Source of the DNA: Ascidia mentula | Taxonomy: Eukaryota; Chordata; Ascidiacea; Phlebobranchia; Ascidiidae | Length of the DNA: 64,000 nt | Reading direction: 5' to 3' | Assembly: GCA_947561715.1 (NCBI GenBank) | Contig: OX387204.1 | Location: forward strand, 14,513,001 to 14,577,000 | In this document: in pieces, positions 228-6,919 of the stretch | Position numbering within the stretch: the first letter of the stretch is position 1 | Layout of the letters: each line of letters starts with the position of its first letter | The notes under the pieces: generated by a model | What the model was told of the DNA's origin: nothing | The model's input: only the letters and a program-made list of their open reading frames with translations | Databases searched by the model: none | Program-made: the position numbers and the translations under genes

Positions 228-232
228 GTCAT
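228..232. repeat. Target-site duplication of the BEL/Pao element, left copy (GTCAT)
   Basis: GTCAT at 228-232 directly precedes the 5' LTR and is repeated at 6871-6875 directly after the 3' LTR. A 5-bp duplication is usual for BEL/Pao integrases. It lies within the intron of the Death-domain gene. Confidence 0.9.
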
Positions 233-555
233 TGTAACGGACAGAACTGAGTATGATTTCTGTGGGTGCACTCATGCGCGGAAACTTATTTTGTGTTTGG
301 GTTGTGCGCGTGCTTGTAATGTTGAGTTAGTGTATCCATTGCAATCTAGTTATTTGTACGTTATTTTAATGCCTTCTTGGCTGTGATCAGTTGCATTCTA
401 TTTGAATAAGGTGGAGCCGTGTAGGCATTTAGTTTTAAATCGTGTTTATTCTAGTTTTATTTATCTGTTTGCTGTGAAACTGCAAATTGGAATAAAAGGT
501 TGAGAATTGCACGCATATAAAAAAGTACACGGCAATTAAGGATCTGTATCCTACA
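233..555 (+). repeat. 5' LTR of the BEL/Pao element, containing the Ciona spliced-leader sequence
   Basis: A 323-bp LTR bounded by TGTAAC...CTACA. It differs from the 3' LTR (6548-6870) at only three positions, so the insertion is young. Positions 395-410 read ATTCTATTTGAATAAG, the Ciona 16-nt spliced leader, immediately followed by GTGGAGCC, so that a GT donor abuts the leader. A poly(A) signal AATAAA lies at 491-496. If transcription starts at the leader, R would run from 395 to roughly 515. That layout is an inference. No TGG-type primer binding site is obvious after 555. Confidence 0.92.
395..410 (+). promoter_or_regulatory. Spliced-leader 16-mer inside the 5' LTR
   Basis: Exact 16/16 match to the published Ciona intestinalis trans-spliced leader, with GT as the next two bases. 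The copy in the 3' LTR is at 6710-6725, the same offset from the LTR start. A chance 16-mer match in 64 kb is very unlikely. Whether the following bases match the intron part of the SL RNA gene cannot be decided here. Confidence 0.85.
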
Positions 556-652
556 TTGAATTTAAAACTAAAGTCAAAACTGCATTGTTTTGAGTTACGT
601 CTGTGATCTGTTCACATTGTGACGTAATACGCAACGTGCATAGTTGATTGGA

Positions 653-2197
653 ATGGATGAAGCAGGCGAGGAGCCCAATGTTTCTAAGGAACTGTTTAAA
701 ATACTGAACGTTGTGCGCTCGGGAAATGGTTCTGTAGGGAGATCAAACGCTTCAACAAACTGTGGTTCCTTTGGAAAAAGTTTGCGTTCCAACAGCTCGC
801 GTGCACGTAGACTTGTTGATAAAAAATCACTGGCACTAAAGTATGCTCAGGAACAAGTTGCCATTGAGGAAGAAAAACTGCTTGTTGAAGCTGAACAACG
901 TCGTTTAACGTTGGAAGATGAACAACGTCGTTTAACGTTGGAAGATGAACAACGTCGTTTAACTATGGAATCTGAGCGTCGACGTATAGAACTTGAAGGT
1001 AAAATAAAGAGCTTTGAATTGAAAAAGCAAATGGCTAAAGCCAGGGAAGAGGTGGCACAGGCCACACTGGCTGCTGAACATGTCAGTGAAAGTTGCTCTT
1101 CATCAGAATCTTTGTCTGATATTGCGTTAGATGGTACACCAGCAAAAAGGTTGCCAATGAAACGTTTGACGTGCTTGACTAAGGCTTTCGATGAGCGGCG
1201 TGGCGGAAAAGTTTCGGTTCATGATGTTTCGCCAACATCACCTTTTCTACTAGGAAGACCACATGTTAATGCTGCATCTATAAATGTTCGTGCTGATCAC
1301 GAATCACCACTTGTTGCATCAAACTCGTTGGGTCCACTGTTAGAATTGGACGGGGCGCATAAAGATTTGCCGCCGTCTCGGAGGGAAACTGGTATTTTGC
1401 CTGCAACCGATACTGATATTCCAGGCAAAGGGAGAAACGCTGACGTGGAATATGGGACTCTTGATCAAAGCCCTATGAACCAACCTCTTGGACCTGCAGT
1501 ATCAGGTACTAGACCGACTTCAGATATGGTGTTTTTTGCTGAAATGATCAAACAAAGTTTTAATTTGCCACGCTTGACCATAGAGAAGTTTGATGGTGAC
1601 CCGTACAACTATCACAAATTTCTAAATGACTTTGATCGTCAGATCAATCAAACGAACCTAAGTAACTCTGAAAAACTTAGTTACCTTTGTGAATTTTGCA
1701 CTGGACTTGCAAGGTCTAACATTGTGGAATGCAAAAGTTTGCCATCTGATATGGGCTATTCTGAAGCATTGAAAATACTACACCATCGTCATGGACGAAT
1801 TGAATTGGTGGTTCGTGCACATATGGACAAACTGATTGGAAGGAACCAGCTGCGAGAAAATGACTTTCGAGGTTTGCAAATGTTTCGTGCGCAGGCAGCC
1901 GAAAGTTACAAATTGTTTGGAAGATGGAGTTGTCGCTACACGCTGGACTTGCCACAGAATTTGGAGGCTATGGCTCAGAGAATGCCACCGGATTATATTG
2001 CACAGTTCATTACAAAGTGTTCGAAACTTAGACTCAAAGGAATATCTCCAACGTTCCAGACTTTGCTTAATTTCTTGGAAGTTAAGTGTGAAGACATTCT
2101 GTCGCCGATGATGAAATACCTTGTGCGGGATACTCAAAAGACAAAGGTTCGAACCAGTATGGTAAACAATCTCGAAGTGTGTTTAATACGGTTGTAG
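653..2197 (+). CDS. gag: BEL/Pao gag polyprotein region (DUF1759-like)
   Basis: The first ATG in frame is 653 (M-D-E-A-G-E-E-P); the frame extends a few codons upstream without a Met. The product is about 514 aa. Residues about 60-140 form a charged coiled coil that includes an in-frame 27-bp tandem repeat (Q-R-R-L-T-L-E-D-E, about 893-970) and is rich in E, R and Q. Residues about 300-500 (L-P-R-L-T-I-E-K-F-D-G-D-P, later L-L-N-F-L-E-V-K-C-E) match the gag core common to BEL/Pao, which assembles the cytoplasmic particle. The CCHC zinc knuckles expected next are in the following frame. The frame closes with TAG at 2195-2197, 19 nt into the annotated pol frame. Confidence 0.85.
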   Translation: MDEAGEEPNVSKELFKILNVVRSGNGSVGRSNASTNCGSFGKSLRSNSSRARRLVDKKSLALKYAQEQVAIEEEKLLVEAEQRRLTLEDEQRRLTLEDEQRRLTMESERRRIELEGKIKSFELKKQMAKAREEVAQATLAAEHVSESCSSSESLSDIALDGTPAKRLPMKRLTCLTKAFDERRGGKVSVHDVSPTSPFLLGRPHVNAASINVRADHESPLVASNSLGPLLELDGAHKDLPPSRRETGILPATDTDIPGKGRNADVEYGTLDQSPMNQPLGPAVSGTRPTSDMVFFAEMIKQSFNLPRLTIEKFDGDPYNYHKFLNDFDRQINQTNLSNSEKLSYLCEFCTGLARSNIVECKSLPSDMGYSEALKILHHRHGRIELVVRAHMDKLIGRNQLRENDFRGLQMFRAQAAESYKLFGRWSCRYTLDLPQNLEAMAQRMPPDYIAQFITKCSKLRLKGISPTFQTLLNFLEVKCEDILSPMMKYLVRDTQKTKVRTSMVNNLEVCLIRL

Positions 2198-6547: not shown

Positions 6548-6870
6548 TGTAACGGACAGAACTGAGTATGATTTCTGTGGGTGCACTCATGCGCGGAAAC
6601 TTATTTTGTGTTTGGGTTGTGCGCGTGCTTGTAATGTGGAGTTAGTGTATCCATTGCAATCTAGTTATTTCTACGTTATTTTAATGCCTTCTTGGCTGTG
6701 ATAAGTTGCATTCTATTTGAATAAGGTGGAGCCGTGTAGGCATTTAGTTTTAAATCGTGTTTATTCTAGTTTTATTTATCTGTTTGCTGTGAAACTGCAA
6801 ATTGGAATAAAAGGTTGAGAATTGCACGCATATAAAAAAGTACACGGCAATTAAGGATCTGTATCCTACA
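6548..6870 (+). repeat. 3' LTR of the BEL/Pao element
   Basis: 323 bp, same ends as the 5' LTR. It is preceded by a short purine-rich stretch (AGGGGTCGGAA) that could serve as the polypurine tract. The spliced-leader 16-mer is at 6710-6725 and AATAAA at the position equivalent to 491. Three substitutions relative to the 5' LTR were counted by eye. The GTCAT duplication follows at 6871-6875. Confidence 0.92.
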
Positions 6871-6919
6871 GTCATTATCTAGCCACTAAATTAAATTATA
6901 ATCATAAAACAATCGATAC

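Follow-up and report, generated by a model that had tools for sequence, protein, structure and literature searches.

Both long terminal repeats (LTRs) of a BEL/Pao retrotransposon of the ascidian Ascidia mentula carry the 16-nucleotide spliced leader (SL) of their host. Judged from sequence, this 16-mer is probably an exon of the host SL RNA that was gained via reverse transcription of trans-spliced element RNA and has since been inherited as element DNA, a reading to which we assign a probability of roughly 0.6. Retrotransposons of two very dissimilar kinds bear this leader, suggesting that such elements were copied from RNAs already tagged by the host.

The leader in both LTRs of a BEL/Pao element

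The features of the element in the window, i.e. the whole stretch of 64,000 nucleotides that was analysed, are collected in Table 1. Its assignment to BEL/Pao, made in an earlier sequence-only reading of this DNA, was borne out by the Pao-type domains of the pol frame, where Pfam matches to Peptidase_A17 (E 5.2e-45), DUF5641 (E 4.4e-29) and Integrase_H2C2 (E 7.7e-06) were obtained, together with the paired LTRs and their target-site duplication. No Pfam RVT match was found in this frame at E 0.001, and a related element (L036) gave an RVT_1 match with a score under the cut-off. The first open frame contains 27-base tandem repeats (860-994). The two LTRs differ at three positions (LTR positions 91, 124 and 156, which are 323, 356 and 388 in the 5' LTR), all of them sites that vary in other copies too, which suggests that elements exchanged sequence by conversion or recombination and not that the differences are private mutations.

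Table 1. Positions of the element's parts in the window
Feature	Position	Strand	Remark
Target-site duplication GTCAT, left	228..232		pairs with 6871-6875
5' LTR, 323 bp, TG...CA	233..555	+	3 differences from 6548-6870
SL 16-mer in 5' LTR, LTR position 163; putative U3/R boundary	395..410	+	identical to leader of host SL RNA genes
GT 3' of leader, 5' LTR	411..412	+	GTGGA next to leader in 40/40 copies counted
AATAAA, poly(A)-signal-like, 5' LTR	491..496	+	96 nt from first SL base
First open frame, 517 aa, gag position	644..2197	+	open reading frame
pol open frame, 1429 aa	2179..6468	+	Peptidase_A17, Integrase_H2C2, DUF5641
3' LTR, 323 bp	6548..6870	+	pairs with 5' LTR
SL 16-mer in 3' LTR	6710..6725	+	exact match
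GT 3' of leader, 3' LTR	6726..6727	+	read from sequence
AATAAA, 3' LTR	6806..6811	+	read from sequence
Target-site duplication GTCAT, right	6871..6875		pairs with 228-232

As the sequence-only reading had stated, each LTR holds one copy of the 16-mer, ATTCTATTTGAATAAG, with GT directly 3' of it both times. These two copies are the only matches in the window when up to two mismatches are allowed, against a mean of 0.07 in 100 shuffled sequences. The 16-mer had been called the Ciona trans-spliced leader, and its sequence is indeed the one given for Ciona in the available text of PMC7986045, but the host here is Ascidia mentula. A difference between the leader of this host and the 16-mer was looked for and none was found, as the tandem SL RNA genes of A. 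mentula read ATTCTATTTGAATAAG followed directly by GTAAGCATCACGCCC, with a leader exactly that of the LTRs. An AATAAA about 80 bp downstream had been taken to mark R; this spacing holds for the window LTR, counted from the last leader base, but four of the seven LTRs measured (L035, L036, L038 and L044) have neither AATAAA nor ATTAAA. The leader of the window element would nevertheless sit at the U3/R boundary.

In the whole genome the exact 16-mer occurs in 2157 copies (1091 + 1066), against 0 for the reversed control, and at 1672 places (841 + 831) it is followed by GTAAG, as in the SL RNA genes. This leaves about 485 perfect copies outside these genes (2157 minus 1672), spread over several BEL/Pao LTR families and a separate class of elements that bear hammerhead-like motifs. 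SL pseudogenes are said in the available text of PMC7986045 to be rife in Ciona, and the source cited there may include similar sites. Comparison of 108 non-gene sites over 100 bases on each side gave 25 downstream classes, 44 upstream classes and 47 pairs, a set in which two places are counted twice (L003 = L079 and L014 = L068, as second copies) and which is no random sample, since about 62 of the sites were collected via the window LTR or by the base preceding the SL.

The SL RNA genes themselves lie in tandem arrays at L031 and L032 (C1:15.24-15.33 Mb) and at L106 (C71:13.39-13.45 Mb), with spacings of ~720 and 711/1273 bp, and the gene unit of C1 also has a variant leader, ATTCTGTTTGAATAAG, ahead of GTAAG. 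A short repeat at L112, L114 and L120 opens with the SL, continues with GCAAGCATACG, and is similar over ~200 bases within three unrelated flanks. Its first bases resemble the SL RNA body (GTAAGCATC). The repeat may represent a retroposon headed by SL RNA, or else a trans-spliced non-coding RNA that was retrocopied.

Leaders joined at a splice acceptor in the hammerhead-bearing class

Many of the leaders outside the SL genes are followed, a few bases 3', by CUGANGA...GAAA with a short helix II. Among 33 hammerhead-like sites picked out by eye, 19 distinct ones fit the pattern, two are repeats of one and 12 do not fit; helix III is a 6-base palindrome in 15 of the 19 and changes as a unit (AUAUAU, AUCGAU, AUUAAU, ACAUGU). 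A custom hammerhead pattern was used because an Rfam scan of 20 loci gave no hammerhead match beside the SL, the sole hammerhead-type matches lying below the gathering cut-off elsewhere in L025, and the name "hammerhead" is therefore a statement about this pattern. The class is probably Penelope-like, with a unit of ~3.5 kb such as that at C2:19803739-19807239.

One hammerhead family, with a core that begins TTTTGG, has this core, TTTTGGTAAATGGAGAAACTGATGATG, at 81 + 93 places with at most one mismatch. We compared 20 stretches of this family, 10 from closely spaced copies and 10 from other places without a perfect SL. Unspliced copies, which make up 13 of the 20, read cctttttggcag directly before TTTTGG, a strong-looking 3' splice site, while in four stretches a 5'-truncated SL ends exactly at the acceptor point; the remainder are one truncated SL with gcag, one head-to-head pair and one other sequence. 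Both lists are complete for C1, C2, C52 and C67, and there a perfect SL abuts 11 of the 79 core places. Where the unspliced copies have TTTTTGGCAG before TTTTGG, the SL-bearing ones have the leader, and the junction falls at the same nucleotide. The SL has been swapped in precisely at the 3' splice site, and therefore trans-spliced RNA was reverse transcribed and then inserted, fixing leaders in the genome. The SL insertions of this family are accordingly best described as retrocopies of trans-spliced RNA, and we see no other good account of them.

An inverted copy lies upstream of some SL insertions (L090, L091, L097, L103, L115 and L117), and those at L097, L115 and L117 end in part of the SL. 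Head-to-head TTTTGG pairs, a few to tens of bases apart, are present at C1:11816548-11816606, C52:4337742-4337828 and C67:17671088-17671166, and some such pairs have the SL on one or both arms.

The base that precedes the leader bears on the state of the copied RNA. Leaders that are not followed by G, a set of 241 genomic copies from which the SL genes and many LTR copies are absent, have a G directly 5' in 118 cases, where base composition leads one to expect ~19% (p ~6e-25 under an assumption of full independence, which the sites partly lack). The corresponding base in the SL genes L031, L032 and L106 is C or T. All perfect SLs on C1 up to 15.05 Mb were read, and G precedes the SL at 7 of the 10 hammerhead-like sites picked out by eye among them. 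A reverse transcriptase that copies a cap would add such a G, as at L1 5' ends, and the excess is apparently the mark of RNA copied with its cap still on.

Inheritance and origin of the LTR leader

The window family was used to follow the conservation of the leader, in 40 copies (41 matches minus one 69-bp fragment, with L003 and L014, the second copies of L079 and L068, excluded), drawn from the 40 scored among 88 candidates. It is perfect in 27 copies, has an inserted T in eight (the +T form, ATTTCTATTTGAATAAG) and carries substitutions in five; GTGGA follows it in every copy. Of the two features to which the sequence-only reading drew attention, the 16-mer is thus kept in most of the copies examined and the GT in all 40. 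A sister LTR free of the SL, with a bare acceptor, was not seen among these 40 copies (of 88 candidates), all of which carry the leader or something close to it. Stronger conservation of the SL than of the rest of the LTR was not borne out, as the adjacent R bases are equally well kept in this family and in that of L036. The base preceding the SL is C in the window family, G in L064 and L096, and T in L081 and L122. Of these, L096 and L122 are relatives of the window LTR that have other U3 bases 5' of the SL and the same or a similar start, SL and then GTG, 3'.

The +T leader is present at three insertion sites with different flanks, at C70 20.2-20.8 Mb, at C71 19.27 Mb and at C52 15.15 and 15.23 Mb; the two C52 copies have an identical flank, and the C70 copies represent a segmental duplication, since their flanks are near-identical. 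A genome-wide search for SL RNA genes with the +T leader gave 0 matches. With the variant at three sites and no SL gene to match it, renewal by host SL RNA at each cycle is not required, and the +T leader seems to have spread as element DNA, uncorrected by the host SL RNA: the leader is inherited with the element. Three elements of the window family (L063/L059 and L067/L062 on C70, L065/L061 on C71) are mixed, with the +T leader in the 5' LTR and a perfect leader in the 3' LTR; despite this mismatch, the two LTRs of each C70 element are alike at the other compared sites.

The window family is one of at least three SL-bearing LTR families with Pao-type domains, the others being L036/L044 and L035/L038, in which the identity of the LTR pairs is 100% (L035 and L044), 98% (L038) and 96% (L036). 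The SL starts at LTR position 163 in the window element, 177 in L036 and L044, 182 in L038 (where the LTR start is approximate) and 217 in L035. For the L036 family, from which 42 matches were obtained with 40 scored of 184 candidates, the leader is perfect in 31 of the 36 stretches retrieved. A further BEL element, L182/L183 (C52:2957619), has identical 496-bp LTRs, both of which hold the 13-of-16 form TTTCTATTTGAATAGC at LTR position 176. The dinucleotide 3' of the SL depends on the type of LTR, being GT in some and GA, GC, CA, CT, TT or AT in others.

The number of leaders also varies. Sister LTRs of one related group have one (L043, L039), two (L030, L037) or three (L022), the later SLs of the tandems carrying substitutions; a different family includes L029, with a single SL, and L035, where a shortened SL comes after the first. 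The bases that resume after the SL differ between L036, L020 and L044. Such variation among sister LTRs has the look of leaders added repeatedly at the 5' end of the RNA, or of slippage there, and is reminiscent of the SL relicts that dinoflagellates have (PMC6616646). The SL-bearing LTRs of L035 and L034 lie in or beside tandem arrays of ~138-bp units.

The SL list for C1 is complete up to 15.24 Mb, and in that part 6 of 22 Peptidase_A17 loci have a perfect SL on the same strand within 7 kb, against 2% expected per locus, with 150 of the 363 A17 candidates scored. The other 16 of the 22 have no same-strand perfect SL within this distance; a family that is free of the SL by perfect match may hold a decayed form, as the BEL family at C52:2957619 turned out to do.

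We propose that the RNA of an ancestral BEL/Pao element started upstream in the LTR and that trans-splicing swapped its first part for the SL. In reverse transcription of this capped RNA the minus-strand strong-stop DNA would end in the SL, which would then be fixed by strand transfer at the U3/R boundary of both LTRs, a step for which we lean on the hammerhead class because the product of the same reaction, with the SL exactly at the acceptor, is seen there. From then on the SL would pass on as element DNA, as is shown by the +T variant, which occupies three insertion sites and is matched by no SL gene. A trans-spliced genomic RNA would have a shortened, SL-tipped 5' R, and a minus strand copied from it could extend cleanly on the 3' end of the RNA only if the 3' LTR encodes the SL. 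With the leader in both LTRs, an SL-tipped RNA, whether initiated there or spliced again, would keep the redundancy needed for first-strand transfer, and several BEL families may keep the SL because the encoded copy preserves this terminal redundancy. The sequences themselves establish that the leader is that of the host, that it occupies both LTRs, that it is inherited and that leaders were retro-fixed elsewhere in this genome. That the RNA would start at the SL, that LTR elements would first have captured it in this way and that they would benefit from it are parts of the proposal that we put forward conditionally.

Two origins had been offered in the sequence-only reading, a fixed trans-spliced 5' end or a captured SL RNA gene with promoter, leader and donor that could act as a mobile SL donor. 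The former is the better of the two, as an unrelated class of elements joins the SL exactly at the acceptor, although for the window family itself we infer the capture from that other class, from the absence of SL-gene flanks and from the anatomy of the LTR. One detail runs counter to it: the window leader is preceded by C and not by a cap-derived G, and the GC before it and GT after it match the SL genes of C1 as well. These same bases, and the GT kept in all 40 window-family copies, speak for a captured gene piece of leader and donor, serving as a mobile SL donor or mimicking trans-splicing by cis-splicing from the GT. Alignment beyond the leader tells against it, since the window LTR matches the SL gene at just 10 of 40 bases upstream and 10 of 40 downstream, three other SL-bearing LTRs match its flanks at 4 to 12 of 40, the window LTR continues after the GT with GGAGCC and not AAGCAT, and the GT is absent from other SL-bearing LTR types. 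Because the likeness ends near the leader, with GC and GT agreeing directly beside it, capture of an SL gene is improbable, and the window LTR, which has the leader without the SL RNA body, was rejected as an SL RNA gene. Chance or convergence on an A+T-rich 16-mer has its A+T richness in its favour and nothing else; the 2157 copies against 0 for the reversed control refute it for the genome as a whole, and with the many unrelated neighbours of the SL and the exact joining at the acceptor we regard it as hardly credible.

The remaining alternatives concern what the leader does now. Transcription may begin at the first A of an encoded SL that is kept because a 5' SL aids translation or stability, with no further trans-splicing; this allows an origin by capture, and the present role may be that of an encoded 5' end. 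The similar position of the leader in the LTRs of several BEL families and its inheritance as DNA agree with such mimicry, but no common upstream promoter element was established and one BEL family has just the 13-of-16 form in its two identical LTRs, which leaves it a possible but rather unlikely account. We consider it unlikely, and slightly more so, that the SL functions as part of R, with the genomic RNA trans-spliced and the host leader annealing to the SL of the 3' LTR in first-strand transfer, in which case host SL RNA would supply, and often though not every time renew, one end of the element. Another account has host SL RNA re-template the LTR leader at most cycles, with the encoded AAG as acceptor. 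The perfect leader in 27/40 copies of the window family and 31/36 of the L036 family fits this, as does the finding that in the tandem LTRs seen the downstream SLs are the decayed ones, but the +T leader has no SL gene as template at any of its three sites, the 13-of-16 form persists in identical LTRs, and the encoded SL is, by inspection, a weak acceptor beside the pyrimidine-rich one of the hammerhead family. Re-templating of this kind is improbable, and both the +T lineage and the 13-of-16 variant tell against strict renewal at every cycle.

Comparison with known systems

A retrovirus-like RNA should lose its 5' R to trans-splicing and so be harder to copy, a difficulty for which LTRs that encode the leader would offer a simple remedy. 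In an animal, moreover, the SL serves as a natural tag for RNA that was retrotransposed: the insertions of a single genome tell which RNAs of its elements were trans-spliced and at which acceptors, apparently with the cap retained. In the open-access literature, among the matches listed (titles and abstracts), we found no report of LTRs that contain an SL or of Penelope-like elements with one at their 5' ends, in agreement with the earlier remark that no described LTR element does this.

The element shares with other BEL/Pao elements the TG...CA LTRs, the 5-bp target-site duplication, Peptidase_A17, the H2C2 integrase and DUF5641, and differs in having the host SL within its LTRs at the putative U3/R boundary. 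Cer1 of C. elegans is likewise an LTR element whose RNA meets SL trans-splicing, but according to the available text of PMC3315495 it is a spliced subgenomic RNA that takes SL1 and not the 8-kb genomic RNA, and that text mentions no leader in the LTR. The ta-TRIM elements of Echinococcus also have LTRs that interact with SL acceptor sites; as described in the available text of PMC4558846, the LTR there competes with the SL for host acceptors and carries no leader. With Penelope-like elements and retrozymes, as presented in the accessible parts of PMC6155905 and PMC7229834, the hammerhead class has in common a putative minimal hammerhead with hardly any helix III and copies in tandem and inverted arrangement, and the A. 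mentula elements differ in the SL fused 5' at a splice acceptor. A parallel in mechanism is offered by the SL-tagged retrogenes and SL relicts of dinoflagellates (accessible parts of PMC6050394, PMC12014239 and PMC6616646), where the leader is likewise encoded in DNA after reverse transcription of trans-spliced RNA and decayed leaders stand in tandem; in dinoflagellates the tag is on host genes, whereas in A. mentula it is on retroelements, in LTRs and at the 5' ends of hammerhead-bearing elements, and in an animal.
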